22,162 nt of DNA. Source: a virus. The position numbers and the translations under genes are program-made. Location of the stretch: positions 1 through 22,162 of IMG/VR virus record IMGVR_UViG_3300009154_000309. One strand, 5' to 3'. Below the pieces are notes generated by a model. It saw nothing but the letters and a program-made list of their open reading frames with translations. It was not told where the DNA came from and searched no databases. Positions within the stretch are counted from its first letter, which is position 1. Every line of letters begins with the position of its first letter. Below are positions 224-19,518 of the stretch, piece by piece.

Positions 224-3200
224 ATGAGCCTACAACTCGCTGCCAAACATTTAGCCCAACAGGGGCGCGGTAATGACTCCGCGCTCGTCCACATGGCCCC
301 CAGAGAATTGGCGAGCTTGCAAGCTCTTGCGCAAAAACACGGTGGCTCTTTATCTATCAACCCCCAAACTGGCTTGCCCGAAGCTGGGTTCTTAGAGAGC
401 TTGCTTCCCGCTATTATTGGCGGCGGTTTGTCCGTTGCGTCAGGTGGGACTATTGACCCCATGACTGCGGGTATGCTGGTTGGCGGTGGGCAGGCTATGT
501 TGACCGGAGACTTGAACAAGGGTCTGATGGCCGGTATCGGTGCTTATGGTGGCGCTGGTATGGGGCAATACATGGCCAATGCGGGTTCGGTTGTACCCGC
601 CGCCGCCGCAAAAGAAACAGTAAGCATCCCAACTGCCGCAGAAATTGCACCCGCCCGAGCTATAGATACAAACGTGGAGTCAGGTGCAGCTAGCCAACCC
701 GAGCTGTATCAACATGGGGCATACATGCCCGAAAAAACGGGGTTTTCATTTAGTAACAATTTAGGTAACGTTGAACAAGATATAATCCCCACAAGCTATA
801 GCCCAACTGCGGACGCAAAAAGCGATATTACTGCGGGATACAACGCCGCCCCATCAGCAAGCCCACCTAAAGATTTCGCTGCATTCCAGCGGGGGCTCAC
901 TATGGACAACACATTGGGGTTTATGAAGGCCCACCCTATGCAAGCCGCTGCGTTGGCTTCTGGCCCAATTATGGAGGCTACTACACGTCCTCCTCCCACC
1001 GCTGCTGTAGATTCAGACAAAGGCGCAAACGCCAATGCTGGCATTAAGTACCATGCTAACTTCGTTAACCCAACTCCTGCGCCTAACCGTTATGGCATAG
1101 AGCAGGTATACAACCGCCCCACTTACATGGCTGAAGGTGGCCAAGTAGAGCACTATGTTGCTGGTGGGTTAACCCCCGCACTACGGGCGTATCAGCAGTT
1201 GCAACAACAACGGGCTAGCCGTAGGCCTCAAATCAATGCTAAACAGCAGTTTGATGACTACATGAATTCCGTTCGCGGTGGAACTACAAAACCAAAATTT
1301 TGGACGCCTCCAGCACCTGCACCCACACCCGCGCCAATTGCACCAACTCAACCTATTGATACTTCCAATCAAGGCGGTGGCGGCGGTGGCAGTGGTAGAA
1401 CACCGGCAGATTATTCTGCTGCGGGAGAATTTAACCCAACTAGCGAAGGCGCGTATAACGTATCGCGTGCAGGGCAAAGCATTAGCACTATATCCCCACT
1501 CCTTGGTGGTGTTGTAGGCGCATATGGCAACTACTTAGCCAAGAATGTTGACCCTAACTACAGCCATGAGGCTATGCGTAAACCAATTGCAGTAGCGCCT
1601 TTTGTAGATGTAAATAAATACGATAGTAATTTTTACGATGCCCCACTAAGTTCACGTACGGATATTTCTGGTTACCCCCTGCGAGAGTCTGAACTGCGCA
1701 GTCTTGAGAGCGGGTTAAGCTACAAAACACCAGCGCAAGAAGCAGCGGAAGCGGAATTTAATGCGATAGCAGCAGCAGCAGCAGCAACAGAAAATAATAC
1801 CCCCACAGACCCGTTTACTGGCCTACCCAAAGCACAAGTTGCTGCGGGGGATAACCTGCTTATGGGCACAGTTATTCCAGCGGCAAGTGAATCTAATCCT
1901 TACGGTCTAAACTACCAAAAACCAGAGGCAGCAACTAACCCGTTTGTTAATTCAGTTTCACCAGATGGATTTACTACTACGGGCATGACCTATACGATGC
2001 CTGTTAATGCTGAAGAAAGGGCTAATGATTTAAGCGATTACGGCGCGGTCACCAACAAATTTAACCTAGGTACTTTAACTCCCGATTCATTAAACTATGC
2101 GGGCACTGGAGTTTCGGATACATTAAATATGTCTTCTGTGCCCGAAACTACCCCAACAGAAAAAAACATAACGTATACCCCTGCGGAGCAAACAAGGATA
2201 GACAGAGAACAAGCTTTACGCGATTTGCAATCAGCGCAAGAACGCCAATCACCAGATTCAATTGCTAAATACCAAGCGCAAGTAAATGAGTTAAATGCTC
2301 TATCGTTGATGCGCGACAATATAGACACGTTTGGGCCTGTTACTGCGGGTGATGCCGAAGGTGTTTCCGTAGTCCCAGTCTCCGCCCCTGAAGCTGCCCC
2401 AGCCCCCGGTGTTGACCCGTTCAGAGAAAGTATATCCACACAAAATGTTGTGTATGGGCCCGATGGAACGGAGTATGGTACTCCTGCTGCTGCTCTGGCT
2501 GCTGGTGTGACTAACTACACCATGTCTCCACCTGTTGGCATGCCAATTACCCCTATCATCCGGCCTCTTGACCCGTACGCGGTAGATGCTGGCTACGCAA
2601 ATACCCCGGCCCCAAGAGACAGACTTGGCGAACTTAGCGCGTCCTACGGTGGACTTGGAAGTGCTTGGCAAGGGGTTGTTGACCGGGAGGGAAACCCTGT
2701 ATTGACTAGCCAAGGTGCTGCTGAAAAAGCATTCCTAGATTCTCCTCTAGGTATTACAACCGGTAATTTGAACGCGGCTAAAACTTACGCTCCACCTCAA
2801 GACCCTGCCCAACAACAGCAAGCAGCAGCCCAAGCAGCAGCCCAAGCAGCAGCCCAAGCCGACCGGGAACAAGCAGGACGTGAAGCAGCTAGGCAAGCAG
2901 AAGCCCAAGCAGCAGCCCCTGCGCCAGCCCCTGCGCCAGCCCCCGCTCCCGCTCCCGCTCCCGCTCCCGCTCCCGCCCCTCCAAGCGAAGGTAGAGACCC
3001 AGAAGCTACAGGTAGAGACCGTGACACAAGCCCAGTCGGTTCAGAGCATGAAAATGTAGGGGACCGTGATAGTGGTGGTGGTGCAGATGCCCGAGGTGGG
3101 TATTTAGCCCACGGTCAGTTTGACCAACGCATGGCCCGTGGTGGGAATGTGCACGGCAACCTACGCCCACCTCATCCGTTTTTTCAAGATGGCAAATATA

Positions 3201-3535
3201 GCTTCCACCCCCCGCAGATGTACGCAGATGGCGGTGAGTTAGACCCCTATAATCTTGGTTCTTATTCCGATGGTGGTCGGCTGCTCAAGGGCCCCGGTGA
3301 TGGTGTGTCCGATTCCATCCCAGCCACTATTGGTAAGGGGCAACCTGCTCGGCTAGCCGACGGTGAATTTGTGATTCCTGCGCGAATTGTTTCTGAGATT
3401 GGCAATGGCTCTACAGAAGCTGGCGCACGTAAGCTTTACGCTATGATGGACAGAATTCAATCGGCACGAGGTAAAACTGTGGGTAAAGGCAAGGTAGCAA
3501 AAAACACTCGCGCAGATAAATATTTGCCTAGATAA
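224..3535 (+). CDS. Large virion structural protein with C-terminal SDSIPA module
   Basis: This 1103-aa protein starts with MSLQLAAKHLAQQGRG and VHMAPRELASLQALAQKHGGS, an amphipathic N-terminal helix pattern I associate with phage structural proteins. Residues about 55-125 are Gly/Ala-rich and hydrophobic. The middle is low complexity (Pro, Ala, Ser, Thr). Residues about 866-878 are AAAQ repeats and about 899-919 an Ala-Pro repeat, probably an extended linker. The C-terminus (about 1023-1075) holds GPGDGVSDSIPA, then LADGEFVIPARIVSEIGNGS and a Lys/Arg-rich tail. The SDSIPA...DGEFVI signature is widespread in phage tape-measure and other virion proteins. GG motifs (AEGGQV near 303, ADGGEL near 1002, SDGGRL near 1016) recur in the 924-aa protein downstream. 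No catalytic motif is visible. Its place ahead of the GNAT-like and giant genes suggests a virion or ejection-cassette component; the exact role is unknown. Confidence 0.85.
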   Translation: MSLQLAAKHLAQQGRGNDSALVHMAPRELASLQALAQKHGGSLSINPQTGLPEAGFLESLLPAIIGGGLSVASGGTIDPMTAGMLVGGGQAMLTGDLNKGLMAGIGAYGGAGMGQYMANAGSVVPAAAAKETVSIPTAAEIAPARAIDTNVESGAASQPELYQHGAYMPEKTGFSFSNNLGNVEQDIIPTSYSPTADAKSDITAGYNAAPSASPPKDFAAFQRGLTMDNTLGFMKAHPMQAAALASGPIMEATTRPPPTAAVDSDKGANANAGIKYHANFVNPTPAPNRYGIEQVYNRPTYMAEGGQVEHYVAGGLTPALRAYQQLQQQRASRRPQINAKQQFDDYMNSVRGGTTKPKFWTPPAPAPTPAPIAPTQPIDTSNQGGGGGGSGRTPADYSAAGEFNPTSEGAYNVSRAGQSISTISPLLGGVVGAYGNYLAKNVDPNYSHEAMRKPIAVAPFVDVNKYDSNFYDAPLSSRTDISGYPLRESELRSLESGLSYKTPAQEAAEAEFNAIAAAAAATENNTPTDPFTGLPKAQVAAGDNLLMGTVIPAASESNPYGLNYQKPEAATNPFVNSVSPDGFTTTGMTYTMPVNAEERANDLSDYGAVTNKFNLGTLTPDSLNYAGTGVSDTLNMSSVPETTPTEKNITYTPAEQTRIDREQALRDLQSAQERQSPDSIAKYQAQVNELNALSLMRDNIDTFGPVTAGDAEGVSVVPVSAPEAAPAPGVDPFRESISTQNVVYGPDGTEYGTPAAALAAGVTNYTMSPPVGMPITPIIRPLDPYAVDAGYANTPAPRDRLGELSASYGGLGSAWQGVVDREGNPVLTSQGAAEKAFLDSPLGITTGNLNAAKTYAPPQDPAQQQQAAAQAAAQAAAQADREQAGREAARQAEAQAAAPAPAPAPAPAPAPAPAPAPAPPSEGRDPEATGRDRDTSPVGSEHENVGDRDSGGGADARGGYLAHGQFDQRMARGGNVHGNLRPPHPFFQDGKYSFHPPQMYADGGELDPYNLGSYSDGGRLLKGPGDGVSDSIPATIGKGQPARLADGEFVIPARIVSEIGNGSTEAGARKLYAMMDRIQSARGKTVGKGKVAKNTRADKYLPR
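2821..2856 (+). repeat. Three perfect copies of a 12-bp tandem repeat (AAAQ-coding)
   Basis: AGCAGCAGCCCA occurs three times head to tail with no mismatch, inside the 1103-aa gene. It encodes an alanine/glutamine repeat. A 12-bp unit keeps the reading frame if copies are gained or lost, so the linker length can vary without breaking the gene. Confidence 0.9.
2917..2979 (+). repeat. Ala-Pro-coding tandem repeats (12-bp x2, then CCCGCT x5)
   Basis: Two copies of CCCTGCGCCAGC (2917-2940) are followed by five perfect CCCGCT hexamers (2942-2971) and a degenerate end. All encode alternating Ala-Pro, a stiff extended linker. Both unit sizes are multiples of three. Perfect nucleotide copies point to recent slippage rather than old selection on the protein. 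Confidence 0.9.
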
Positions 3536-3537
3536 TC

Positions 3538-3945
3538 ATGCCCTTGTACCAAGTAGCCCCCCGTGAGTTACCTGAACTTTGGCCAATTGCTGCCCCTATG
3601 TTGCAAAGAGCCATTGATGTTGAACCGGATTTCATAACTATCGAGCAAGCGGAAAACTTTATCCGCACTGGCAAAGCTCATTTGTTGGTATGGGAAGAGC
3701 CCGATGTAGGTGTTACCGGGGCTGCGATGGTTGAGTTTCTTGATTACCCACGCGAACGCGTTGCGCATATAAGTCTTACAGGTGGCAAAGGCATAGCAAA
3801 TCCGCTGGTCTTTGGTGAAGTTAAAAATTGGATGCGTCTGTATGGGGCTACTAGAGCCCAATGCTGGACCAAGGGTGCATTAGTCCGTGTGTACGAAAAA
3901 ATTGGGTTTGAAAACACCCAACAAGTCATGCGGATTAAGCTGTAA
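3538..3945 (+). CDS. GNAT-fold acetyltransferase-like protein (T7 gp13-like position)
   Basis: This 135-aa protein has the order and length of a small GNAT domain. An N-terminal helix region (ELWPIAAPMLQRAI) is followed by a strand near LLVWEE, a central strand pair (VTGAAMVEFLDYP, RVAHISLTGG) and a C-terminal VRVYEKIGFENT, the typical tyrosine-Gly-Phe end of GNAT folds. The canonical acetyl-CoA loop (Q/R-x-x-G-x-G/A) is not clear; LTGGKGIANP sits near the expected place, so catalysis is uncertain. It starts two bases after the previous stop, with no strong ribosome site, and so is probably translationally coupled. In T7-like phages a small GNAT-like protein (gp13) lies just ahead of the internal virion proteins, and the layout here is the same. 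It could instead acetylate a host or virion protein. Confidence 0.7.
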   Translation: MPLYQVAPRELPELWPIAAPMLQRAIDVEPDFITIEQAENFIRTGKAHLLVWEEPDVGVTGAAMVEFLDYPRERVAHISLTGGKGIANPLVFGEVKNWMRLYGATRAQCWTKGALVRVYEKIGFENTQQVMRIKL

Positions 3946-3961: not shown

Positions 3962-6736
3962 ATGTCAGGCGGAAGCAGTTCACCAACACCAACCTCGACC
4001 ACAACAGGTCTAGCAGCACTGCCAGACTGGGCGCAGGGCTACGCCAAAGATACGCTATCCAATGCAGCATCGCTCACAAACATTAACACCAACCCGTACC
4101 AACAGTACGATGCGCAACGCATTGCAGACTTTTCTCCGTTGCAACAGCAGGCCCAGCAAGGCGCTGCCAACATGCAGACTTCCGGTGCCATTGGTGTTGG
4201 GCAAGACATGGCGCAAGCAGCGGGTCTTTCCGCATTGGGAACTAACTACAACGCAAGCAACTACGGCAGTCAATTTAACCCCCAAGGCATTGGGTACGGC
4301 GCACAAACAATGCAGGGTTACCAGATGGGCCCTGCCGAGCGTATAGGCACTCAAAGTTTTGCTCAGCCCGGTGCAGCGGATGCTTACATGTCTCCGTACA
4401 TGCAAAACGTGGTGGACATCCAAAAGCGTGAAGCACAACGCCAGTCTGGTATTCAAGGCACGCAACAGCAGGCACAGGCAGTTGGAGCAGGAGCTTTTGG
4501 TGGAAGCCGCGATGCTATTCAGCGTGCAGAGCGTGAGCGCAATCTTGGCACTCAAATGAACGACATTCAAGCGCAGGGTTCTCAAGCCGCGTTTGGCCAA
4601 GCACAGCAACAGTTCAATGCAGAGCAGCAAGCACGGTTGGCAGCACAACAAGCTAATCAACAAGCAGGACTTACCACTGGAATACAAAACCTAGGTGCTG
4701 CACAACAAACTGGATTGGCTAACTTAGCTGCTCAGAATCAAGCCGGGCAGTTCAACGCTGGGCAGAACCTGCAAGCCGCAAGTCTAGGTGCTCAATATGG
4801 GCAAGCAGCTAATCAGCTTAACGAGCAGTCTCGCCAGTATGGTGCGGGTCTGGGATTACAAGGTCTTCAAACGGGGCTGCAAGCAGCGGGTCAACTTGGT
4901 ACGTTGGGGCAGAATGAGTACGCCCAGAATATGGGCATCAACCAGCTACAGGGCCAGTATGGTGCACAGCAGCAAGCTCAGCAACAACAAGGACTTACTC
5001 AGTCCTACCAAGACTTCCTGAACCAGCAGAACTACCCATACAAGCAGATGGGCTTCATGTCCGACCTGCTTCGCGGTTTGCCGTTGGGTCAGCAGTCTAC
5101 GCAGTCTATCTATCAAGCCCCCCCGTCAGCAATTCAAAACATTGGCTCTTTGGGTCTGGGCGCGTATGGCGCGAAGCAGTTGGGTATGTTTGCTGATGGC
5201 GGACAAGTGCATAGCTATGCCGACGGTGGTGATGTCAACTCGATGGATGACCCAAACGCAATGACTGCGGCAGTAGCCAAACTTTCTGACGAGCAACTAA
5301 AGCAAATCATTCAACGCCCATCTAGCGCAGCCGAACTCCAAGCGGCTCAACTAGAACTAGCTACCCGTGCATCTGAAAAAAGTGGACTTGCTGGGGCTTA
5401 CAACATGGCTCAAGGTGGCATGGTTGCTTTCGCCCGTGGTGGTATCCCTAGGTACGATGGAGAAAATGGTAGTGTGGTTGATGGAGGTACTAATTACGCC
5501 GCACTTGATTCTTTATCCAATAACTACGACTCTGAAGACGACGACGAAGATACAACCGGTGTAGTTGATTCAAAAGGAAACCCCGATGCGTACAACCAAG
5601 TTACGCAAGAATACCTAAACATGCTGCGGGATAACAAAGACCGTTCAGGTATACAACTGCGTAGCGATAAACAAATGGAAGACGCAGCAATGGCCCGATA
5701 TGGGCGTATGAACGAGAGAATTGGCGGGGATAAAACCTACACCGATATTCAAGACCAGATTTCCAAAATGCGCGGAGAAAATGAAAGCGCGTTAGGTGAA
5801 GGTAAAGGACTGGCTGCACTTCAAGCAGCAGGTGCAATGCTTCAAGGCAATGACCCCATGAGAGGGCTAGGTGCTGCGGGTGCTGCGTTTGCTAGTTCGT
5901 ACGCTCCTGCACTGGCTGCTAAGCGTCGGGCAGACCAATCCTTTACTGAGATGAACATCAACTTAGCCAGAGCCCAACGTGCTGAAAAACAAGGCTTGCT
6001 TAAAGAGGCTGATGCTTATACACAAAGTGCAGAAGCTAATAGGATTAACGCATACAAAGCAGACACCGCAGCACGTAAATTGAGTCTTGATTCCTTGCCT
6101 CGTGCAATGCGGGCACTTAAGCCGGTCATTCCTAAACCTGCGGCAATACCTAAACCCAGCGATATGGCTTTGGCGGTAGATGCTCGTGTGGCTGAGCTTA
6201 CAGGTAATGGTATGGACCCGATTAAAGCAAGGGCCCAAGCGTTTAAGGAAATAGGCACGCAGTTCCATCCTGCACCAATTGCCGCAGGCATCTCCGCAAC
6301 AGCGATGGGCGAAAGGTCTGCTGCCCAGATAGCCGCCGATGAAGAGAAACAACGGAAAGAGATTGCGGAAAAACGAGACGCAGCACGGTTGCTGTTGGAG
6401 AAAGAAGTTGATGCTTCGCTTACGCCAGTAAAACTTATGGAGTACCCTGAGTACGCGGAGGCAATGAAATATTTTGGTAAAACCCCTCCCGCTGGCGTAC
6501 TTACCCCAGCAGAAGTTAGGGAAAAGATTAAAAAGACTGAAGTAGAACGCCGTGCAGGTGCGCGTCCGTCTGCTAGTGGTGAGGGTGCGGGTAGTGGTGC
6601 TGGTGCTGGTGCTGGTGGGGCTATAGCACTTCCTGCCAATGCAACGGCAGCAGCTTTAAAAGACGGACAGTTGTATAAAACTCCTCAAGGTGACGCAAAA
6701 TGGAACGCTGCTAAACAGAAATTTGTAGCGCAATAA
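3962..6736 (+). CDS. Gln/Ala-rich internal virion-type protein
   Basis: This 924-aa protein begins MSGGSSSPTPTSTTT and continues with LPDWAQGYA, PYQQYDAQRIADFSPLQQQA, an N-terminus I associate with phage virion proteins. Residues about 50-390 are strongly Gln/Ala/Gly-rich and mostly helical in character, ending in DFLNQQNYPYKQMGFMSDLL, probably the end of an elongated helical domain. Two paired GG motifs follow: FADGGQVHSYADGGDV (410-425) and AQGGMVAFARGGIPRY (483-498). Residues about 530-545 are acidic (SEDDDEDT). Later segments are Lys/Glu/Ala-rich helices (about 780-840). A Gly-Ala linker leads to a C-terminal LYKTPQGDAKWN element. No enzyme motif is visible. Its position between the GNAT-like protein and the giant protein suggests an ejection-cassette or tail-core component, by analogy with T7 gp14/gp15; that role is inferred. 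Confidence 0.8.
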   Translation: MSGGSSSPTPTSTTTGLAALPDWAQGYAKDTLSNAASLTNINTNPYQQYDAQRIADFSPLQQQAQQGAANMQTSGAIGVGQDMAQAAGLSALGTNYNASNYGSQFNPQGIGYGAQTMQGYQMGPAERIGTQSFAQPGAADAYMSPYMQNVVDIQKREAQRQSGIQGTQQQAQAVGAGAFGGSRDAIQRAERERNLGTQMNDIQAQGSQAAFGQAQQQFNAEQQARLAAQQANQQAGLTTGIQNLGAAQQTGLANLAAQNQAGQFNAGQNLQAASLGAQYGQAANQLNEQSRQYGAGLGLQGLQTGLQAAGQLGTLGQNEYAQNMGINQLQGQYGAQQQAQQQQGLTQSYQDFLNQQNYPYKQMGFMSDLLRGLPLGQQSTQSIYQAPPSAIQNIGSLGLGAYGAKQLGMFADGGQVHSYADGGDVNSMDDPNAMTAAVAKLSDEQLKQIIQRPSSAAELQAAQLELATRASEKSGLAGAYNMAQGGMVAFARGGIPRYDGENGSVVDGGTNYAALDSLSNNYDSEDDDEDTTGVVDSKGNPDAYNQVTQEYLNMLRDNKDRSGIQLRSDKQMEDAAMARYGRMNERIGGDKTYTDIQDQISKMRGENESALGEGKGLAALQAAGAMLQGNDPMRGLGAAGAAFASSYAPALAAKRRADQSFTEMNINLARAQRAEKQGLLKEADAYTQSAEANRINAYKADTAARKLSLDSLPRAMRALKPVIPKPAAIPKPSDMALAVDARVAELTGNGMDPIKARAQAFKEIGTQFHPAPIAAGISATAMGERSAAQIAADEEKQRKEIAEKRDAARLLLEKEVDASLTPVKLMEYPEYAEAMKYFGKTPPAGVLTPAEVREKIKKTEVERRAGARPSASGEGAGSGAGAGAGGAIALPANATAAALKDGQLYKTPQGDAKWNAAKQKFVAQ

Positions 6737-6745
6737 AGGGCTAGC

Positions 6746-9700
6746 ATGGCAAAAGAATTCACTCTAGAGGAAGCACTAGCCCCTCCACCTAAAGCTGCGC
6801 CTAAAGCCGCCCCCAAAGAATTTACCTTAGAAGAAGCATTAGCTACTCCCGCCGCCGCTCCCGCCGCTACCTCAACCGCTGCACAAAACCGGGCCGACGC
6901 ACAAGCTAGGCAGGATGCAGCTTCCCAAGGGCTGGAGCAAATCTCTACCCCCCAAGCGGAGTTGGCTGATGCAGAGAGAAATGTTGCTGCGCTTACCAGA
7001 GAACTGCGACGCAAAGGAGTAGATGCTGGGCCCCGCCCTGCTATTGGTAGCACCAAGGCCGGAGACTTTCTACTCGCTCAAGGAGCCAAAGCCCAAGGCC
7101 AGCAACCCGCCGACGTTGTTGTTCCTCCCCCTGTTGCCCCTCCCCCTGCGGTAACCCCCCAGCTTGCTCCTAAACCTGTGGATGCAGTGGCTGCTGCACG
7201 GGCGGCTATACCGCTTGGAGCTAGCCCTAAGTTCATAGAAAGTATGCGGGCTGAGCTATACCAACTGCCCCCTGAACAACGCGCTGCTGCAATACAGCAG
7301 GTCATAAAAGAGTACGGCAAAGACTCGCTCAAAGGGCGTGTAGTAAGTTTCATAGCAGCAGAAAATGCGGCGCTAAACAAAGCAACAAACAAAACCCCCG
7401 CACTGGAATCACGGTTGGGCACAGCTATGGGGCTCAAACAAGAAGCCCCTGTTACAGGTTACATCCCCAACGCTATTCAAAAATTAAGCCCTCGAATAGA
7501 AGAGGTCACCCAAGAACTGATAGACCAAGGAGTACGTGCCGATATTGCTCCGGGCATTGCTGCAAATAGGATTGCATTTGGGGTTGCTAACCAGCCTATG
7601 GCCTTTGCTGACCGTGATGTAGTCGGCGAACAAGCTGCTGCCGCTGCGGAACAACAAGCCAAAGAACTCAAAGATGCCGGGATGACCAAGCGTGTTGGTG
7701 CTGGGGCTTTGTCGGGGACTAAGAAAAGCCTTGCTGGATTGACTCAGTTTGGGGCGGACCTTTGGGGGGATAAAGCTTTCTCCCAAGAACTAGCAAACAC
7801 CCAACGGATAGAAGGCGCTAAGTCTGCTGCAATTCCCCAAGGCGAAGGTATCTTCGAGAAGTCATTTCAAGGGGCGGCTACAAGTCTTGCAAGTCAAGCA
7901 CCTTTTATGGCATTGAGCGCATTGACAGGTTCATCAGTTCCCATATTAGCGCAAGCAGCACTTCAACAATTTGGAGACTCCTACGGGGAAGGTAAGGCTG
8001 CGGGGTTAAGCACCACGCAAGCTAGTCTACGGGCAGCACCAATGGCTGCGGCAGAAGTGTTTTTTGAACGCTTTGGTATGACCAAAGCAATGGCGGGGCT
8101 GAAATCTTTTGTTGCTGAACATGGTGGGGCCAACATAGCTAAGTACGTAGCCAAGGCTATAGCAGAAGAAATTCCTTCCGAACTAGCTACTACTGCGTCG
8201 CAATACGTAACAGATGTACTGCCCGGCATAGGGATGAATAAAAACCCTAGCCTTATTGACTTGTACAACCAGCTAGAAGAAACACTACGTCAGACAGTAT
8301 TGCAAGCCGGAGTTACCGGGGGTGTAACTATTGCCGGGGTTAAGGGTGTTCAAGGTGCTAAGGCTACCCCCCAAGCAATAGATGCAGCAAAAGAAAGGCT
8401 TCGTGAAACCTCCAACAAGATAGTCGGCATTGAGAAGACCAACGAACTACTCGGCCCCCGCGAAGGTGCTTACGAACGTCCGGGGGAAATAAGCCAAGCA
8501 AAGCTTATGGCCGAAATGCGAAGGGTTCCGTTTGCCTCTAGTTCAGGTGCTTTAAACGCACCTCCGGCAGAAAAAGCCGCCGCTGAACCCAAACTAGGTA
8601 ACCTAGAAAACGTGGGTATGCGGGAAGAGGAAGAACCCAAACTAGGTAACCTAGAGAACGTGCGGGCTGGGGAAGAACCTCCATTCGCTAAAGGCAAAGC
8701 TGCGCCTACAGCCGAAGACACCGAAGCAAAGGTAAATGCTGTTGCCGAGAGATTGCGTTCACGGGGCATACCTAGAGAGAATGCGTTGCGCATAGCGCAG
8801 AGGCAAGTTGCGGAAGAACAAGCCAAAGGAGCCAAAGATGTTGCAGGAACTGAGCCCCCTCCAAGTGGAGAGAGCACTAGCGTGGCTAGTGAGCCCGGAG
8901 CAAAGACCCCCGGAGGACTTGAAACACCTGCACGAGATGGAGTGGTTCCTGTTGAACCGAATGCTGGAGTGTCTGATGCAGGAAAAGCACCAGAGCCCGC
9001 TGCACTGAAAGAAACTAAAGCCGAAGAAAGAACCCCAAGTGGCACTGAAACCGTTGAAGCCAAGCAAACAGAAACGCAAGAACAAGAAGCACCCGCTGCC
9101 CCAGTAAAAATCAGAAAAACTGAACCCGTAGTAAATGAAAATGGCGCATTTATCCCCGCAAAGGAAAAAGGGGGAGAACTAGAAACCACTGCGCATTTCA
9201 AGGTACTAGACGAAGACAACGATATATCAGACAACCTTGTTGGCGCTACCATGATAACGGGCATGGGGGCTACTAAAGAAGGGCAGGGCGAAGGGTCTAA
9301 GCTACTCAAGGCGATTACTGCTTGGGCTGATGCTAACGGTAAAAAATTGGTACTTGTACCTGCGGCGTCCCCTAAAGGCGAACGTGGGCTTTCTCAAGAA
9401 CAACTAAAAGCATGGTACGCCCGAAACGGATTTGAAGACCGCATCGACTACATGGTACGGGAACCCGGCGGTAAAAAAACTGAAGCCCCCGCAGCAATCA
9501 AGCCCGCCAAGCTCGGCAAAGAAGTACACACGACCCCGCAGAACGCTGAGGGCAAGTGGAGCCACGCAATAAACGGCGAGGTGGTTGAAACCTACGACAC
9601 CAAGCGCCAAGCAACTGCTGCAATGCTGTTGGACAAGGCCAAGAAAACGGGCAACGAGGAACTGATTGCCCAACGACAGAAAGTTTTTGATGAGGCGCTG

Positions 9701-12700
9701 AACCCCCAGCAACGAGGCCGACCACCAAAAATTATTCCGCTTGAAACACCAAAGGCAGAGGAAACTAAGGCTGAAGCACTGAAGGCAGAAGAAGCTAATG
9801 CCGCTGAGAAAAAACCCACCGCTGAAGAAAAATTTGAGGCAAGAGCTAAGGCTAACGTAGAAGCGAACCAAAAAGCCATGGCGGAGAAAGCTAAGGCCGA
9901 TGCCGAAGCAAAAGCTAAAGCCGACGCAAGGGCTGAGGAAGAAGTAGACGAGGAGCAAGAGCAAGCTCTTCGGGAAAAAGCTGAAGCTGAAATAGACGCT
10001 GGGCCTATTGGTGAGGCACTGCGCCGCATTGAAGACGGTGACCGGGTTGAGACCAAAGCACAACTACGCCCCTTCATGTTCAAGCTGGAGAAAAACGGCG
10101 TACTCGATGACATCAGTGACATTCAAGAAGCCCTGAGTGACCGTGAGCAGACTGCTGATGACGTGCTCGACATGATGCGTGACCAGCTTGAAACCGCTAG
10201 AGACGATGCAGTAGACGAGCGCATCGACGAACTTAGAGAAGAAGCGGAACAAGAAGTGGAAGCCGGAGACTTAACTAGTAAAAGTATGCTGGGCGTAAAC
10301 GCTGAAGTGCATGAAGAAGCACCATACTTAAAAGACAACGGTCGAACTTTAGACTTAATTGTAAATGGAAAAGTTACTGAAACATTTGAGTTAGTAAGCC
10401 AAGGTTTGTGGAACGCTTTTAAGGGTAAGCCTGAAGCGCAAGAAAACCTATTACGAAATAATGACGCCAGAAAAGTTAATGAACAAGCGCAAAAAGCATT
10501 AAAAACTGCAACATTTAAACACAAAGAATTAGCGCCTTTAAGTCGTATGGAACTAGGTGCGCTTAAAGCTATTAACGAAAACAATATAGAAGAACTGCGT
10601 TTGTATAACATAGGTGCGCAAAACGGCGCTGTTAGAGAATCTATTGCGACTTTAATTTTCCAAGCCCTTCATGAACCCGGCAAACCATTACGTAAGGACA
10701 GACTTACGGACATGGCGGCAAACAATAATACTAGGGGGGTTGCAACTGTTCTAAAGTACGCCCCTGCTTCAATGCTTGAAGGTGTAGATATACCTAAGCC
10801 TGCTGAAGCAGAACAACCCAAATTTGGTGTAGCCCCTGCCGCTAAAGCAACCGAACCCAAACCCAATCTAACGCTCGAAGAAAGAGAGCGGCTGGCAGAG
10901 CTTGAGGACTTGCACAACAACGCCACCAACAACCCAAACACCGAGAGCGGTAAGGCAGCGGCTAAAACTCTTGCGCGTATTACCAAGGATTTTGACGAGC
11001 CCAAAGTTGTGCGTGAGCGGGCCAAGGCAATGTTGTCGGGTGAGTACTCCACACTGGCTATTCAAGCTGCACAGGGTAAGAAAGACCTAGCGTTTAGCAA
11101 GTTCACTACTTCCAGTCAGACCCTATCGCACATCATAAAAACCGGCACGGATTTCCAGAAGAGACTGGCCCGCCGACTGCGTAGCACTGTGCGCGGCGTG
11201 AAGATGGTGGTGGTTGAGAAGGGTCAAGAATTACCAGCAAGCGTAGCTGCGGTTAAGGCTAAGTGGGATAGAGCCCTTGCCATGTACAACACCGAGGAAA
11301 AAGTTGTCTACACCAAGGGTGAATCCTACGGCAGGACCAACGGCCTGAACGCTGTTGTGCAGCTACACGAGCTATTCCACGGGGCTACATCCCAGAAGAT
11401 ACGCACTGCACTGGCCTACATGAAGATGGGTCGGCATCTAGACTCCCAGATGGTCGCGGCGGTCAAAGGGCTGCAAAAAATAATGGACACCGCTAGAGCG
11501 GAGCTAAACAAGCAGATTGAAGCAGGTACTGTAGACCCGGATGTGCACAGCCTAGCTGTCTATGGTGAAGCGTTCACCAACCTCCATGAGTTTGTATCTT
11601 ACGGGAACACTGATGCTAAGCTGCAAGAGTTCCTTAAAAGTGTGAAAGGGTTTGAAAAAGACAAGGGGTTGTTCTCGCCATTTGTTGATGGCCTACGCCG
11701 CTTGATGGGTGTAGCAAAAGAAGATGCTAATGCACTGTCTGACCTCGTCCAGCACACCGACCAACTCATAAGCTCACGTAGACCGGGCGGCTGGGGTTTC
11801 CCAGAAGTAGAGACTCTTGCGTCGGCTGCAATACCACCAAGTCCGGGGGATAGAACCCAAGCGCAATTAGATAAAGACTCTGCTAAGGCTTGGGGCAAAG
11901 TGGACGCCTCCCAAAAAGGACAGGAAAGGGCTGCTGCGCTTAGTAGTCTTATGGCCCTGCGAGACCCTCGCGTTATTTGGGCACGACTCGAAGGTGTATG
12001 GGACAAGCTAGATAACCCAACACGTAAAGCTATTGCGTTGACCTTTGACCGTAACGGCATTGCCAGCACTATAGGTAAGCACATCCCAGCGTTGCACGAA
12101 ATAGCCGACCGCCTCCAAAGAATGGACGGTATGGCAGCTAGCATACGAGCAGGAGCAGCACAGCAGGCTGGTATGGTTGTGAACTTTGCCCGAAAAAACC
12201 GCAAAGCTATGAAGGTGCTTGACCGACTACTACCGGCTTCAACCCTTCTTAGATACGACCCTGCAAACCCACCGGCAAGCGGAATCCGGGATACAGCAAC
12301 GGATGAAGCCTATGCGTCTTTGAAACCAGCGGGCCAACGGGTGTACCGTGAGATTCGGGATTACTTTGCGGACATGTACAGCACAGCACGGGACATCATG
12401 GAGTCCAGTGTTGACGCACTAGACCTACCCGTAGAGGCAAAACAAAAATTAATGGCTAGCATCCGGCTGGCGTTTGAAGAAGGAAAAATTGAGCCGTACT
12501 TACCACTCATGCGCTACGGTGACTACATTTTCCGCATCAAGCAACGGGGTGCTGACGATTATGAATCCTTTAGGTTTGAAACCAAAGCCGAGCGTGATTT
12601 TGCAGCTAGGGCGTACGCCAAAGAACAAGGTGCTGCGCTAGAAGACCTTGACGTACAGTTAGCAAAAGACAGGGGCGGGAAAGAACAGCGGGGTATTGTT

Positions 12701-14785
12701 GAGGGCAATAGCAAGCTGCTGAAGGAGATGTATGAGGCCATAGACTCTATGGACACGGCTGACTCCAACGCCAAGGCAAAACTGAAAGACAACATGTATC
12801 AGGTCTACCTAGACTTGATGCCTGAAGAAAGCGTACGCAAACAGTTCATACACCGCGAAGAAGTTGTCGGCTTTAGCACTGACACGCTACGGATGATTAA
12901 CACCCAAGGCATCAAGCTAGCTAGTGCCCTGTCTAAGCTTCAATACGGTAACGAGCTACGCAATCTGTCTGAGCAAGCCAACCGGCAACTTGAGGGTAAA
13001 GAGCAATACGAAGACTTTGTTGGCGCAATGGATGCGGTTATTGATGAGGCATTAAACCCCAAACCACTTGGCCCTGTTGCTGGGTTCTTTGACCCAGTGA
13101 CTAAGCAATGGACGAAATTTACGTTCATTCACAACTTGACGAGCCTATCGTCCGCCCTAATGCAGCCAGCGGATATTATCTTGACTGCTTCACCTGTATT
13201 AGTCGGTAACCACGGGCCCAAAGCCCTAGTTGAACTGACCAAGATGGCTAACGTGGTTAAGCAGTTTGGTGTGTGGGAGACCCTACCTGATGGGACTAAA
13301 CGGTTCCGTGCACCAAGCATTGCATATGCAAAGGGACTGCCCGATATAGAGCTTAAAGCTATTGCTGACATGGTGGGCGAGTACGGCCTTAGTACCGACA
13401 CGCTTGCCAATGAGATTTTTGATGCTGCCACAAAACCTGTAAACAAGGCTGACCCCAAAGCGGTAGAGCTTGCAAAGGATGCAGCCCACATGCTTGTTTT
13501 TGGCGGGTTGATGCACCATACCGAACGCCTTTCGCGTGAGATTACAGGTGTGGTTGCGTTCCGTTTGCACTACGCAGAGATGGAGAAAGCTTCTCCCGGT
13601 AACCCAGCTAACTACGCCAACGCTGTCAGGGCTGCTGTAGCTGAAGCCAATGAAGCACTAGGTGACTACAGCCCCGGTAATCGCCCGCAAATCATGCGCG
13701 GCCCTATAGGGAAGCTAGTAAGTACTTACAAGTTTTTCCCGCTTACACGTATCAAGCTGCTTGGAGGGAACTTCTTCAGGATGATTCCGTTCCTTAACAA
13801 GGAAGGAAAGATTGCCGCAGCCACTAAGTTCTTTGGCATCTTGGGTACGCACAGCATACTTACCGGAGTAGTCGGCCTACCCATGTACGGAATCATACAG
13901 GCGTTGTGGGGTCAGTGGCAGAAGGATGATGATGCTCCGCAAACCATGAAAGACCTTGACCATGACACATGGTGGCGTACTGACTATTTGCGCAATGAGT
14001 TAGGTGACGGAGAAGTAGCTAAGCTACTTGGAGAAATAGCTAAAGGTGGCGTGCTTAACTATGCAACAGGCATGGCTATCTCTGAACGTCTTGGGTTGGA
14101 CAACATGGTGTTCCGTACCCCAGACCCGGGTAAGAACCTAAAGGAATCTGTAGCAAACTATGCGGAAGCATTTTTTGGTGCGCAGTTGACCCCTATCAGA
14201 GCAACACAAGACTCATGGAACTACTATTCCCAAGGTGAGTATCAGAAAGCCTTTGAATCCCTCCCATTCATGCCTAAGTCCATAAGCGCACTGTCGGCAA
14301 CGGAACGCATTTCTCGTGAAGGTATAGAGACCAAACAAGGTATGCCACTCTTGGACAAGGGTACAGTGACTACAAAAGAACTCATTGGGCAAGCTCTTGG
14401 TTTTCAATCAGCGCGTGTTGCAGAAGCACAGAGGATTGCCCATGCTACGGACGTAATAGAGCGGGGCATCAGCGGTGAGAAACAAGCCATAGTAGGTAAA
14501 GCAGCCACCATGTTCTTGAAGGCTATCAATCCGAACAGAGACCCAGAAGACCGGCAACGCTTCTTGAACATGTACCTAGAGACCTTCCAAGAGATACCTA
14601 AGTTCAACGTGAAGTACCCTGAGCACGGTATTGACGGCAAAGAGATTGACGCCAAAATTAACGCCGAGTTGGAAAAGATCGCTGCTTCTAAAATGTTTGG
14701 CGGAGTGAAAATCAACGACAACAATATCCGGTTGTTCATCCAAGCGGCTTTGGCATCTAGGGAAGCACTCAACAACCCGAAATAA
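6746..14785 (+). CDS. Giant multidomain virion or ejection protein with HExxH metallopeptidase and GNAT-like domains
   Basis: The 2679-aa protein starts at ATG 6746 behind an AAAGGG site. In order it shows KEFTLEEALA twice (3-12, 24-33), Pro/Ala linkers, Gly/Ala-rich amphipathic segments (about 365-540), a duplicated EPKLGNLENV (614-623, 630-639) and a GNAT-like domain (about 815-910, with EGQGEGSKLL and WYARNGFE). An AT-hook-like RGRPPK (990-995) and a charged coiled coil (about 1003-1175) follow. A metallopeptidase domain (about 1450-1690) has H1541-E1542 and H1545 in LHELFHGAT, with E1615 in LHEFVSYGN as likely third zinc ligand. The rest resembles the C-termini of phage and mobile-element polyvalent proteins (PLMRYGDY, FIHREEVVGFS), with a hydrophobic stretch at about 2358-2391. 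Position and size suggest a T7 gp16-like ejected protein, but I see no transglycosylase motif. Confidence 0.85.
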   Translation: MAKEFTLEEALAPPPKAAPKAAPKEFTLEEALATPAAAPAATSTAAQNRADAQARQDAASQGLEQISTPQAELADAERNVAALTRELRRKGVDAGPRPAIGSTKAGDFLLAQGAKAQGQQPADVVVPPPVAPPPAVTPQLAPKPVDAVAAARAAIPLGASPKFIESMRAELYQLPPEQRAAAIQQVIKEYGKDSLKGRVVSFIAAENAALNKATNKTPALESRLGTAMGLKQEAPVTGYIPNAIQKLSPRIEEVTQELIDQGVRADIAPGIAANRIAFGVANQPMAFADRDVVGEQAAAAAEQQAKELKDAGMTKRVGAGALSGTKKSLAGLTQFGADLWGDKAFSQELANTQRIEGAKSAAIPQGEGIFEKSFQGAATSLASQAPFMALSALTGSSVPILAQAALQQFGDSYGEGKAAGLSTTQASLRAAPMAAAEVFFERFGMTKAMAGLKSFVAEHGGANIAKYVAKAIAEEIPSELATTASQYVTDVLPGIGMNKNPSLIDLYNQLEETLRQTVLQAGVTGGVTIAGVKGVQGAKATPQAIDAAKERLRETSNKIVGIEKTNELLGPREGAYERPGEISQAKLMAEMRRVPFASSSGALNAPPAEKAAAEPKLGNLENVGMREEEEPKLGNLENVRAGEEPPFAKGKAAPTAEDTEAKVNAVAERLRSRGIPRENALRIAQRQVAEEQAKGAKDVAGTEPPPSGESTSVASEPGAKTPGGLETPARDGVVPVEPNAGVSDAGKAPEPAALKETKAEERTPSGTETVEAKQTETQEQEAPAAPVKIRKTEPVVNENGAFIPAKEKGGELETTAHFKVLDEDNDISDNLVGATMITGMGATKEGQGEGSKLLKAITAWADANGKKLVLVPAASPKGERGLSQEQLKAWYARNGFEDRIDYMVREPGGKKTEAPAAIKPAKLGKEVHTTPQNAEGKWSHAINGEVVETYDTKRQATAAMLLDKAKKTGNEELIAQRQKVFDEALNPQQRGRPPKIIPLETPKAEETKAEALKAEEANAAEKKPTAEEKFEARAKANVEANQKAMAEKAKADAEAKAKADARAEEEVDEEQEQALREKAEAEIDAGPIGEALRRIEDGDRVETKAQLRPFMFKLEKNGVLDDISDIQEALSDREQTADDVLDMMRDQLETARDDAVDERIDELREEAEQEVEAGDLTSKSMLGVNAEVHEEAPYLKDNGRTLDLIVNGKVTETFELVSQGLWNAFKGKPEAQENLLRNNDARKVNEQAQKALKTATFKHKELAPLSRMELGALKAINENNIEELRLYNIGAQNGAVRESIATLIFQALHEPGKPLRKDRLTDMAANNNTRGVATVLKYAPASMLEGVDIPKPAEAEQPKFGVAPAAKATEPKPNLTLEERERLAELEDLHNNATNNPNTESGKAAAKTLARITKDFDEPKVVRERAKAMLSGEYSTLAIQAAQGKKDLAFSKFTTSSQTLSHIIKTGTDFQKRLARRLRSTVRGVKMVVVEKGQELPASVAAVKAKWDRALAMYNTEEKVVYTKGESYGRTNGLNAVVQLHELFHGATSQKIRTALAYMKMGRHLDSQMVAAVKGLQKIMDTARAELNKQIEAGTVDPDVHSLAVYGEAFTNLHEFVSYGNTDAKLQEFLKSVKGFEKDKGLFSPFVDGLRRLMGVAKEDANALSDLVQHTDQLISSRRPGGWGFPEVETLASAAIPPSPGDRTQAQLDKDSAKAWGKVDASQKGQERAAALSSLMALRDPRVIWARLEGVWDKLDNPTRKAIALTFDRNGIASTIGKHIPALHEIADRLQRMDGMAASIRAGAAQQAGMVVNFARKNRKAMKVLDRLLPASTLLRYDPANPPASGIRDTATDEAYASLKPAGQRVYREIRDYFADMYSTARDIMESSVDALDLPVEAKQKLMASIRLAFEEGKIEPYLPLMRYGDYIFRIKQRGADDYESFRFETKAERDFAARAYAKEQGAALEDLDVQLAKDRGGKEQRGIVEGNSKLLKEMYEAIDSMDTADSNAKAKLKDNMYQVYLDLMPEESVRKQFIHREEVVGFSTDTLRMINTQGIKLASALSKLQYGNELRNLSEQANRQLEGKEQYEDFVGAMDAVIDEALNPKPLGPVAGFFDPVTKQWTKFTFIHNLTSLSSALMQPADIILTASPVLVGNHGPKALVELTKMANVVKQFGVWETLPDGTKRFRAPSIAYAKGLPDIELKAIADMVGEYGLSTDTLANEIFDAATKPVNKADPKAVELAKDAAHMLVFGGLMHHTERLSREITGVVAFRLHYAEMEKASPGNPANYANAVRAAVAEANEALGDYSPGNRPQIMRGPIGKLVSTYKFFPLTRIKLLGGNFFRMIPFLNKEGKIAAATKFFGILGTHSILTGVVGLPMYGIIQALWGQWQKDDDAPQTMKDLDHDTWWRTDYLRNELGDGEVAKLLGEIAKGGVLNYATGMAISERLGLDNMVFRTPDPGKNLKESVANYAEAFFGAQLTPIRATQDSWNYYSQGEYQKAFESLPFMPKSISALSATERISREGIETKQGMPLLDKGTVTTKELIGQALGFQSARVAEAQRIAHATDVIERGISGEKQAIVGKAATMFLKAINPNRDPEDRQRFLNMYLETFQEIPKFNVKYPEHGIDGKEIDAKINAELEKIAASKMFGGVKINDNNIRLFIQAALASREALNNPK
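6752..6844 (+). repeat. Duplicated KEFTLEEALA linear motif
   Basis: Ten identical residues occur at 3-12 and 24-33 of the giant protein, encoded at 6752-6781 and 6815-6844. Six of the ten codons differ, all synonymously, so identity is kept at the protein level. Lys-Ala-Ala-Pro spacers lie between the copies. Confidence 0.9.
8585..8662 (+). repeat. 48-bp-offset direct repeat (EPKLGNLENV twice)
   Basis: Copies at 8585-8614 and 8633-8662 match in 29 of 30 bases and encode the same ten residues. Each holds the 13-base palindrome CTAGGTAACCTAG. The near-identity of the DNA indicates a recent duplication, unlike the older KEFTLEEALA pair in the same gene. Confidence 0.9.
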
Positions 14786-14857: not shown

Positions 14858-15052
14858 TCAAGTCCTCCAGACCCGCAAGCCCTTCACTCCATCCATGATG
14901 ACCACCTTGGTGATGATGGGTATCTTCAGCCGTTTTGTGACCACAGCCAACGTAGCCCGCGCCGCCTTGTGGTCGATGCAGGGGATGAAAAATGAATAGC
15001 CCTTGCGGAACTTGGACCAATCAACTCTGTACGCTACTGTCTCGATTTTCAT
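14858..15052 (-). CDS. Small conserved-type phage protein of unknown function
   Basis: This 64-aa protein (MKIETVAYRVDWSKF, then SFFIPCIDHKAARATL and ITKVVIMDGVKGLRVWR) is basic and compact with alternating strand-like and helical segments, as in a small folded domain. The start overlaps the last 32 bases of the PrimPol-helicase gene, so translation is probably coupled. The ribosome site is weak (GGGCAC). It is the last gene before the leftward terminator, and no competing frame on either strand looks like a real protein. I recall similar short proteins in uncultured phage genomes, without known function. A nucleic-acid-binding accessory to replication is possible given its charge and place, but no motif proves it. 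Confidence 0.6.
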   Translation of the reverse strand: MKIETVAYRVDWSKFRKGYSFFIPCIDHKAARATLAVVTKRLKIPIITKVVIMDGVKGLRVWRT

Positions 15053-17873
15053 CTGTGCCCAGTATGGCTTCTACCCGTAGGGTCTCGTCGGCAGAAGTAT
15101 CAAACTTCAGAACGCGCACAGCAGGGGACACAATCTTCATGCCCTTGGACATGCGCTTGTTGGTAGCCTCTAGGAAAATCCCAAGGTCAGCTAGCTTCCT
15201 CAGTAGCTCTTTGTAGCCCGTCTGCTGCTTGACGCAGAAGACCTTGAACTGCTTGGCCGATATGTAGAGGTGCTTGGTGTCTGGTTCGTAGCGTATGAGC
15301 AACTCCCCTCGTGGCTCCAGCGTCGGCAGTGCCGACAGGTTACTTCGGGAATCGACCTCACCGTTGACCACCAGCGTGTTGTAGATGTGCCCGTTAATGA
15401 ACTCACCCAGCGTAGAGATGGGGGACAGACTAGGAGGCTTCACATCTATGCGCATCTCGCCCAGCATACCCTTCAACCAGCCGTATACGTTGCCCATGTG
15501 GTAGTCATGTAGTCCTAGCTCCTTGGCAATCAAGCCACCGGCAATGTTGCATGCCGACTGCGCAGACCAAAAGCGTTCCCGTGAGGTGAACTGGACTTCC
15601 TTGTCGATGCGGGCCTGTACTTTGCGCACGAGGTCTTGGCAGTACTCAAGGTTGTTGACCAAGAAGCTGATGTAGATTTCCCCAGCGTGGCCGTAGTTCT
15701 CGTTCAGTTGGTGGTCAAACATCTGCTTGCCGAGGGCTACGCCGATTACGTCGTTCGGCTCAATCTTGTACTCCAGCAGACGCACAGACTCACCATCCGG
15801 TGTGTTCTTCAGTTCACCCAACTTCTCGTAGAAGCTGCAATTTGCTGAGGCCAAAGTCATGTTGTTCCATGAGGTGTTGTTAAGCCGCATGCCGTTGACG
15901 TTGCCCCTCAAACGGTTTTTGCCCCGCCCGTGGCTGATACCGTAAGCCAAGTCAGAGAACTCCGCACTCGTCATGTTGGTAATCTCGTCGATGGTGTTGG
16001 GCAGGTTGTTCATTACCCCTAGCTGCTGCATCTTGGCGTTGAGCGTGTCCTTCTCAATCCCCATTAGTTCTTTAGGCTGGCCATACACGCTATTACACAT
16101 ACGCAGAATGGTGGACTTCCCCGACCCAGCCATCTCATAGATGACGTTGATGATTGCCCCATCCAAGCCCGTGAACTTCATCAGTGGCGAACCAAACGCA
16201 GTCAGAGCAGCAAACGCATGCGGCTCCATTCCTGGAAGGGCGTACAGGTTGAACACTTCCTTCCACTTCTCCATAGTGCCCTTGGTGTGAATCTTCTCGG
16301 CAAAGAATTCTGTTGCCTCCGACGGTGGGCTGTAGTACGTACCGTCCTTGGTAATCTCCTTGTCGCCCATGATGAACTTGCTATCGTTCTCTACCCATCC
16401 AAATTGTGTTCTCATAATGTCTGCTTTCTTTGTGTACTGCATGTTTTTAACAAAAGTCACCACGTAAACAGCTAGGTTCTCGTACTGCTTGTGGTGGGCC
16501 ATGACTCCTTGCTGAGCCAATGCTTTACGCAACTCATCCTTGGACGATATAGCTGCGGTGGATATGGAAAATTCTCTGATGCCATCGTGTGGCAGGTGCA
16601 GCCTAAACAATATGACTTCACCCGCTTGAGGGTCGCGCATACGTTTAACCACGTAAAAATCATGTTCATAGACCAGCAAAGGGTCTGCTTCTTCATCGTC
16701 GGCGCGTCGATAGACACCACCGTTTTTCCCGCGAAAAAATGGGAACGGATACTCAGGTATGTTTATGGTTACCTGCTTACCCTCTTCAACTTCAACAACC
16801 ACCTCATTATCTTCATCGTCGGCTTTCTCTATCTCTACCCCCAACACAATCGGGGATTTAATTTTGCCCTTGTGCACACAACCATCGCACCCGCTGGGGT
16901 TCTGCTTCTCAAACGTAGTGCAGTGGTGTGGCCCACCTTTGGTCAGCAAATTGTGTACCTTGACCTCAACCTCGTAAGGGTCGTAGTTGGGGTATTGGTC
17001 TGACATCTTCTTGGTCGCGCTATCTTTGTCTACGCAGAACGCAGCAATCGACAGGGCTGAACGCCACAAGGGTTCCTCAAGGGTTGCTTGGTTCTCAAAG
17101 CAATGAATCAGTTGGTTGCAGCCTTCGCCCTTGGCCGACTTCATCATTATGGTTTTGAACCGCTTGACCTTGTTTGCCATCAACGCTTCCATCATCGGGC
17201 TCATAGAGCTTGGAATGAAGTCAGGCTTCTCAGGCTTGGGGTCAGGCGCACCCAGCAACTCTTTCATTTGCGCATACGGGATGCGCACAGTATCGGAGTT
17301 CAACACCTCTACAGGCATTGGCTCTTCGTTCTTGAAGTTGTATGTGTTGGGGATACGTAGGACTCGTGATGCTTCAAACACCGACGAATCAACGATGAGA
17401 CCCTTCTCTACACACAACTCACGTAGCCGACCCGATAGCGGCTCCCACTCTGCGCGGGACACCGTTTCTTCAAGCAGCCAGTAGGCATGAATCCCGTAAC
17501 CGGAACTCACTAGGATTGGCCTTGGTAGGCCGACAACCTTGCAAAACTTCTGAAACTCAACAAGCCCAGTTTGCTGGTCGATGTAACCCTTGACCCTGCC
17601 CTTTTCATCGGGCTCGGCCTTCGTGGGGCCGCAGTCAATATCCATCCACAGTGCGCGGAAGTAGGTGGCGTTCTCGTGCGTGCGGTTGTTCAGAGGGCCG
17701 TACTTGGCGCACCCAAAATACACATCAGCTTTGCGCTCTACAAACTTCTCAACTAACTTGTCAACCTCTTCTCGTGTATCTGCAAATTGCTGGTCTACGT
17801 ACCTACCAATCCCTAACACGCAGTACCTTCCCCCTACGGGAAGAACCGCATCCAGCAAGTCAAAGTTGGACAT
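15021..17873 (-). CDS. PrimPol-type primase fused to a DUF927-like helicase
   Basis: This 950-aa protein should make primers and unwind DNA for phage replication. Its N-terminal archaeo-eukaryotic primase-type domain (about 60-190) shows WMDIDCG with metal-binding D78 and D80, SSGYGIHAYW with H129, and SRVLRIPNTYNFK with R173. A Cys/His cluster follows (C318, C329, C332, H334), probably zinc-binding. The C-terminal ATPase has a Walker A at 583-588 (GSGKST) and a Walker B at about 629-630 (TIDE). ISHGRGKNRLRGN follows, resembling the conserved GQGKAR-type segment of DUF927 helicases; R698 is a possible arginine finger. The start is three bases after the HTH gene, with a weak AAGAAG site. No DNA-polymerase domain is visible. 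The primase and ATPase calls are firm; DUF927 as against another SF3-like family is less sure. Confidence 0.88.
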   Translation of the reverse strand: MSNFDLLDAVLPVGGRYCVLGIGRYVDQQFADTREEVDKLVEKFVERKADVYFGCAKYGPLNNRTHENATYFRALWMDIDCGPTKAEPDEKGRVKGYIDQQTGLVEFQKFCKVVGLPRPILVSSGYGIHAYWLLEETVSRAEWEPLSGRLRELCVEKGLIVDSSVFEASRVLRIPNTYNFKNEEPMPVEVLNSDTVRIPYAQMKELLGAPDPKPEKPDFIPSSMSPMMEALMANKVKRFKTIMMKSAKGEGCNQLIHCFENQATLEEPLWRSALSIAAFCVDKDSATKKMSDQYPNYDPYEVEVKVHNLLTKGGPHHCTTFEKQNPSGCDGCVHKGKIKSPIVLGVEIEKADDEDNEVVVEVEEGKQVTINIPEYPFPFFRGKNGGVYRRADDEEADPLLVYEHDFYVVKRMRDPQAGEVILFRLHLPHDGIREFSISTAAISSKDELRKALAQQGVMAHHKQYENLAVYVVTFVKNMQYTKKADIMRTQFGWVENDSKFIMGDKEITKDGTYYSPPSEATEFFAEKIHTKGTMEKWKEVFNLYALPGMEPHAFAALTAFGSPLMKFTGLDGAIINVIYEMAGSGKSTILRMCNSVYGQPKELMGIEKDTLNAKMQQLGVMNNLPNTIDEITNMTSAEFSDLAYGISHGRGKNRLRGNVNGMRLNNTSWNNMTLASANCSFYEKLGELKNTPDGESVRLLEYKIEPNDVIGVALGKQMFDHQLNENYGHAGEIYISFLVNNLEYCQDLVRKVQARIDKEVQFTSRERFWSAQSACNIAGGLIAKELGLHDYHMGNVYGWLKGMLGEMRIDVKPPSLSPISTLGEFINGHIYNTLVVNGEVDSRSNLSALPTLEPRGELLIRYEPDTKHLYISAKQFKVFCVKQQTGYKELLRKLADLGIFLEATNKRMSKGMKIVSPAVRVLKFDTSADETLRVEAILGTDENRDSSVQS

Positions 17874-19490: not shown

Positions 19491-19518
19491 ACTATACCAT
19501 AACTTTTGACATTGTCAA
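19491..19518 (-). promoter_or_regulatory. Sigma70-like promoter with palindromic operator candidate
   Basis: On the minus strand a perfect TTGACA (-35, bases 19518-19513) is followed after 16 bases by TATAGT (-10, bases 19496-19491). Transcription should start near 19484, some 20 bases ahead of the 141-aa gene. The -35 box is one arm of the perfect palindrome TTGACA-A-TGTCAA (19506-19518), a likely operator. The box also overlaps the stop codon of the SNF2 helicase gene. Confidence 0.8.

Follow-up and report, generated by a model that had tools for sequence, protein, structure and literature searches.

Phage polyvalent proteins, as defined by Iyer et al. in 2017 (PMC5512222), are large chains in which several unrelated catalytic or LPD domains are joined, and they are encoded with late or virion genes. 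Self-processing and the release of cargo have been proposed in general terms for such domains (PMC5512222). The virion RNA polymerase (vRNAP) of phage N4, which bears a homologous zincin, is packaged uncut and at full length, and its residues 2130-2448 have already been assigned to the zincins (PMC5512222); an HExxH motif in the N4 C1 domain was also remarked in an N4 cryo-EM preprint (PMC12633501). In the ejection protein of phage PhiM1, a stretch homologous to the same domain is termed endolysin/exotransglycosidase-like (PMC11440229).

In this study, we examine a 2679-aa protein encoded on a viral contig of 22,162 nt (IMG/VR record IMGVR_UViG_3300009154_000309), the whole of which is called the window. 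The protein joins LPD39, a zincin, a GNAT-like module and a PLxRFG domain in one large chain and is a polyvalent protein as defined by Iyer et al., a known class. We show the homologies of its domains, the conservation of predicted ligands, the swapping of modules among its relatives and a near-fixed neighbourhood of zincin and PLxRFG. This zincin-PLxRFG regularity and the placing of a so-called endolysin domain in the zincin family are additions to a first-pass annotation of the same DNA.

RESULTS

The giant gene and its context

The giant gene follows three other genes on the plus strand:

224-3535, + strand: 1103-aa protein, probable tail or virion part, with conserved ends and a variable middle
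3538-3945, + strand: small GNAT-like gene, 135 aa (phrog_1249, E 7e-4)
3962-6736, + strand: probable DNA ejection protein, 924 aa, directly upstream of the giant gene (phrog_4287, E 0.0069, weak)
6746-14785, + strand: polyvalent protein, 2679 aa, with an ATG start and no internal stop

Near-identical and 92%-identical copies occur in IMG/VR, the latter figure being that of the zincin region. A homologue of the 924-aa gene, at L056:9992-11020, matches phrog_4287 in PHROGs at E 1.6e-12, and in L056 this ejection-protein gene is preceded by genes for tail fibre, holin, endolysin and virion structure. The L056 context and the weak match in the window place the giant gene with late or virion genes, in an operon of tail, lysis and virion functions. 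The virion or ejection context proposed in the first-pass annotation is retained, since the gene directly follows an ejection-protein gene and its zincin is homologous to ejection proteins (below). The association suggests a virion location for the giant protein. We found no virion proteomics for this phage, and virion mass spectrometry of the giant JC1 protein, gp69, was set aside as direct evidence because gp69 lacks detectable homology to the window zincin or PLxRFG profiles.

The small GNAT-like gene has an equivalent relative position in phages Parlo, ZX1 and JC1. In the 1103-aa protein, the first ~120 and last ~100 residues are conserved among relatives and the middle varies; it has no family match in Pfam or PHROGs. 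On the opposite strand, an SNF2-type helicase forms a separate gene (19515-20903, -), unlike in other PLxRFG phages, where helicase and methylase domains are fused into the giant protein. For a DUF927 primase/helicase-like gene (15021-17873, -), the nearest genome relatives lie in metagenome-assembled genome (MAG) contigs, at 72% in one labelled beta-proteobacterium and at 48% in one labelled Actinomycetota. Genome contigs searched with the giant protein yielded nothing, and those searched with the helicase gene yielded two MAG contigs, one beta-proteobacterial and one actinobacterial.

The zincin-like domain

11123-11785, + strand: zincin-like metallopeptidase domain, about residues 1460-1680 (alignments, profiles and AF2 model)
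11366-11380, + strand: HELFH, residues 1541-1545, predicted zinc-binding and catalytic motif (conservation)
11588-11590, + strand: E1615, predicted third zinc ligand (invariant in all three zincin alignments)

Whole-protein scans of Pfam, PHROGs and NCBIfam missed the zincin and gave no peptidase match, and the sequences of alignment A1 had diverged too far to be used for scanning the collection. HExxH is present once in the 2679 residues and arises in 2.7% of composition shuffles of the protein; the motif alone is thus weak evidence, and its meaning rests on conservation. The four residues singled out by the first-pass annotation, H1541, E1542, H1545 and the downstream E1615, are at those positions and are invariant in 14 aligned, diverged homologues from viral contigs (18-89% identity). 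Another alignment, of eight diverse proteins, shows no variation at H, E, H, N and E.

In a BLAST search of phage records, residues 1401-1750 matched phiKMV-like phages in their internal virion proteins and N4-like phages in their virion RNA polymerases. Two profiles were used, A5 built from PLxRFG relatives alone and A3 from a wider set. Against the PDB, A5 matched 9sfn_G, an internal virion protein of 1337 aa (phiKMV-type gp37), at E 5e-19 and 8vb2_A, the PhiM1 tetrameric ejection protein gp48, at E 1e-4, the third and only remaining match being at E 0.75. It also matched the DEV vRNAP (E 2e-11 at PDB-size search space). By hhalign, A5 gave 98% for LUZ19 gp37, 97% for DEV vRNAP and 73% for N4 gp50, and A3 matched the N4 C1 stretch at 96%.

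In the AF2 model of the region (pLDDT 71; model numbering), a helix (69-79) precedes three strands (86-90, 112-115, 120-124); HExxH lies on helix 136-161 and E215, which corresponds to E1615, on a separate helix (213-222). This agrees with the order of elements given for polyvalent zincins, namely helix, three strands, HExxH helix and E helix (PMC5512222). Foldseek found 18 viral models at E<=1e-3. They include LPD proteins, an internal core protein of phiKMV-like type (TM 0.62), close relatives of which had gone into the input alignment, and further internal virion proteins; a vRNAP narrowly missed the threshold. Against the PDB there was no match at E<=0.001, and some zincins were among the weak matches. 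The fold check suggested in the first-pass annotation thus has a mixed outcome, in that HExxH and E1615 lie on separate helices after a three-stranded sheet but no PDB match is significant. The homology of residues 1460-1680 to known zincin domains is firm at the level of sequence and bears out the earlier assignment to a metallopeptidase family; the domain would accordingly be predicted to bind metal and to act as a peptidase.

The same comparisons bear on the PhiM1 label. We read the PhiM1 stretch as a zincin because the alignment printed in PMC11440229 retains HEAAH and DTHEF. By sequence, what is named an "endolysin" domain in the ejection proteins of PhiM1 and phiKMV-type phages is a member of the window protein's zincin family, and the label is probably a mis-annotation that has spread through many phiKMV-like genomes. 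In LUZ19 gp37 (L004:4804-8817) and in PDB 8vb2 chain A, the "Endolysin domain" annotation covers the zincin domain.

The C-terminal LPD39 and PLxRFG part

12050-12445, + strand: LPD39, residues 1769-1900 (Pfam PF18858, E 1.7e-6, 28.3 bits vs a cut-off of 27)
12494-14686, + strand: PLxRFG C-terminal domain, residues 1917-2647 (NF032893, E 1.5e-70)
12503-12520, + strand: PLxRFG signature, reading PLMRYG, residues 1920-1925 (A4 alignment)
13829-13885, + strand: hydrophobic segment, residues 2362-2380, conserved in the PLxRFG family (hydropathy, A4 alignment)

The polyvalent-type regions noted earlier are resolved here into LPD39, above its cut-off, and PLxRFG, which scores 238.5 bits against a curated cut-off of 100. 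P1920, R1923 and G1925 are invariant in the 15 sequences of the A4 alignment, and the domain is conserved at ~21-25% in Serratia, Klebsiella, Erwinia, Vibrio, Pseudomonas, Agrobacterium and Microcystis phages. The hydrophobic segment first reported near 2358-2391 is real, but its peak hydropathy over 19 residues is only 1.46 (homologues, 1.4-2.2), so that a transmembrane helix is uncertain.

The C-terminal model was poor (pLDDT 62) and had no significant Foldseek match in the PDB. That PLxRFG might be homologous to the C2 domain of N4 or DEV, or to the C-terminus of LUZ19 gp37, was dropped, as there was no signal for it. The PHROG match of the window protein to DarB rests solely on the C-terminus (1904-2663). 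A Pfam scan of the window protein found neither SNF2 helicase nor methylase domains, and the "DarB antirestriction" label was not carried over to it on that ground.

The N-terminal region, linker and GNAT-like module

7181-8380, + strand: N-terminal region, residues 146-545, with Ala/Gly-rich hydrophobic segments at 388-406 and 517-535
9128-9481, + strand: GNAT-like module, residues 795-912, ~120 aa (A2 alignment)
9713-9730, + strand: AT-hook-like RGRPPK, residues 990-995, within a low-complexity linker
9803-10261, + strand: charged helical segment, residues 1020-1172 (homologue comparison)

The N-terminal region is conserved in L012, L020, L039 and others and is replaced in L014, L016 and L017; its hydrophobic segments may have a membrane role. 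RGRPPK is where the first-pass annotation put it, and 5 of 13 homologues carry [RK]GRP, where shuffles would give 0.76. What had been called a coiled coil corresponds to a coiled-coil-like charged helical stretch at about 1020-1172, an assignment made without a coiled-coil predictor. This segment is 79-93% identical between proteins that are ~30% alike elsewhere. At the DNA level, 446 bp of the window (9809-10254) are 91-93% identical in two such homologues, the loci concerned being L014, L016 and L018, and the genes that contain this stretch are elsewhere too diverged to align; it suggests a recent exchange or a recombination anchor.

The block proposed as GNAT-like at 815-910 was nearly right, the conserved unit being about 795-912. 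It aligns with eight homologues at 36-95% identity and keeps GNAT motif A (GxGxxLLKxITxWA) and motif B (WYxRNGF). Acetyltransf_7 (Pfam) is matched by 8 of 9 module members with a best E of 1.4e-4, yet all fall below the cut-off, the best members scoring 22.6 bits vs a curated 27. The acetyl-CoA loop R/Q-x-x-G-x-G/A is seen in relatives such as L017 and L041, and the window has E at its first position (EGQGEG). The top PDB matches, both acetyltransferases, are weak (AcrVA5, 6iuf, E 0.13; 1r57, E 0.57). We consider "GNAT-like" a fair description of the sequence of 795-912, and the module may acetylate.

A near-constant pair among exchanged modules

Of 25 PLxRFG proteins, a set that is phylogenetically non-independent and was retrieved in part with the window protein, 24 have an HExxH or HExxxH motif no more than 420 aa ahead of the point where the PLxRFG profile begins. 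Outside this zone, five such motifs fall in 66,014 aa. Nine members of the set come from named phages at ~24% identity, and eight of these have the motif. In L014-L017 and L036, the zincin of window type is replaced by an HExxxH zincin, which is followed in L016 and L017 by ART-PolyVal (E 2e-22). GNAT stands before or after the zincin, depending on the homologue. Among full-length homologues fetched without the GNAT query, it is present in the window protein, L012 and L017 and absent from L014, L016, L020, L049 and L056; L034-L047 were retrieved with that query and give no reading of GNAT frequency. A zincin thus almost always accompanies PLxRFG, whereas the GNAT, ART and GHKL-type ATPase modules are present in some proteins and missing from others.

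In L022:1-8979, L039:3883-12357 and L049:12927-22094, ~750 additional residues separate the window-type zincin from PLxRFG. An ATPase region of GHKL/HSP90-like type lies in this insert (HATPase_c at 8.8e-4 in L022 and 2e-4 in L039, the two scanned), as does a second zincin-like motif, HELAH.

DISCUSSION

We favor, with middling confidence, a reading of the window protein as a polyvalent protein of podovirus type that would be packed in a short-tailed phage particle and injected together with the DNA. The helical PLxRFG/LPD39 part (~950 aa) would form a constant virion or ejectosome anchor, and the N-terminal hydrophobic part and disordered linkers would bear swappable cargo, here the GNAT-like module and the AT-hook-like motif. 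The zincin adjoining the anchor would be an HExxH metallopeptidase that most likely cuts its own chain near the cargo/anchor boundary; such self-cleavage, around ejection, would release the cargo from the channel-forming part. That the zincin is nearly fixed in place, with cargo on one side and the anchor on the other, points to a part in handling its own chain more than to a free effector. The uncut packaging of N4 vRNAP favors activity that follows ejection over activity that precedes it, and makes earlier cleavage unlikely in that phage. In the giant protein no cleavage site was found, and a counterpoint to cargo release is that the zincin also occurs in phiKMV-type gp37 (1337 aa), in which no cargo domain was identified.

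A broader reading, which we offer only tentatively, is that the zincin and its "endolysin"-named homologue constitute a widespread podovirus entry protease, for which cleavage of the ejected chain, or else of a target in the envelope, would be a regular step of infection while the cargo cassettes around it are exchanged. Less likely is an ejected effector, as proposed in the first-pass annotation, that works as soon as it has entered; its zincin would cleave a protein of the host or the envelope, and its GNAT would acetylate host proteins. Domains of all three kinds, GNAT, ART and zincin, are indeed of effector type (PMC5512222), and the best PDB profile match of the GNAT module, although not significant (E 0.13), is the anti-CRISPR acetyltransferase AcrVA5; the zincin, however, behaves as a near-constant PLxRFG partner, unlike optional cargo. 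Processing during assembly, in which the zincin would trim the giant protein or a neighbour in the procapsid, has a precedent in P1 DdrB, which carries an MPTase and for which processing before packaging is described (PMC5512222). The full-length packaging of N4 vRNAP (PMC5512222) runs against it, and we judge it unlikely to a somewhat greater degree. That the domain is an endolysin-like enzyme opening the cell wall or envelope appears improbable: gp37 and PhiM1 TEP 268-528 are so annotated and the domain is found in envelope-crossing proteins, but by sequence this stretch is a zincin, bearing HExxH...E and akin to the C1 domain of N4 vRNAP, and a lysozyme motif is already present in the neighbouring gp36. 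A structural relic, with a zincin fold that only aids packing or metal-dependent folding, is very improbable, since the catalytic E1542 is as invariant as the zinc ligands, even though we found no literature report of activity for any member.

Comparison with known systems

The window protein can be set against several described systems. With the polyvalent proteins of Iyer et al. (PMC5512222), the window protein shares a large multi-domain chain, zincin MPTase, GNAT, LPD39 and late-gene context, and it differs in the combination and order of domains. The near-fixed zincin-PLxRFG pair was not found in the passages searched, and the term PLxRFG is absent from that text. The DarB-like protein of Serratia phage Parlo (3764 aa; also in ZX1 and Skulduggery) has the PLxRFG C-terminus in common and matches the window-type zincin (3.9e-25) and GNAT (7.8e-13), but is larger, ~24% identical and furnished with different cargo. 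LUZ19/phiKMV gp37 and PhiM1 gp48, each the largest protein of an ejection gene cluster, have a homologous zincin but are half the size and annotated endolysin-like; no PLxRFG was detected in LUZ19 gp37, the comparison being confined to that protein of the two. Set against T7-type ejected internal core proteins, the window protein has a zincin domain homologous to ejection proteins; no such homology was detected for the rest of the chain. The N4 and DEV virion RNA polymerases have a homologous zincin, in N4 the C1 domain, and after it a C-terminal part that is large and helical, as here, but the window protein lacks the polymerase and its PLxRFG has no detectable relation to N4 C2.

The zincin is the most common domain of polyvalent proteins, and the near-fixed zincin-PLxRFG pair, together with the zincin homologues in the cultivated phages LUZ19, N4, DEV and PhiM1, makes its role testable by single-residue mutants. 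The comparison also suggests that the gp37 endolysin-domain annotation, used in many phage genomes, is wrong.
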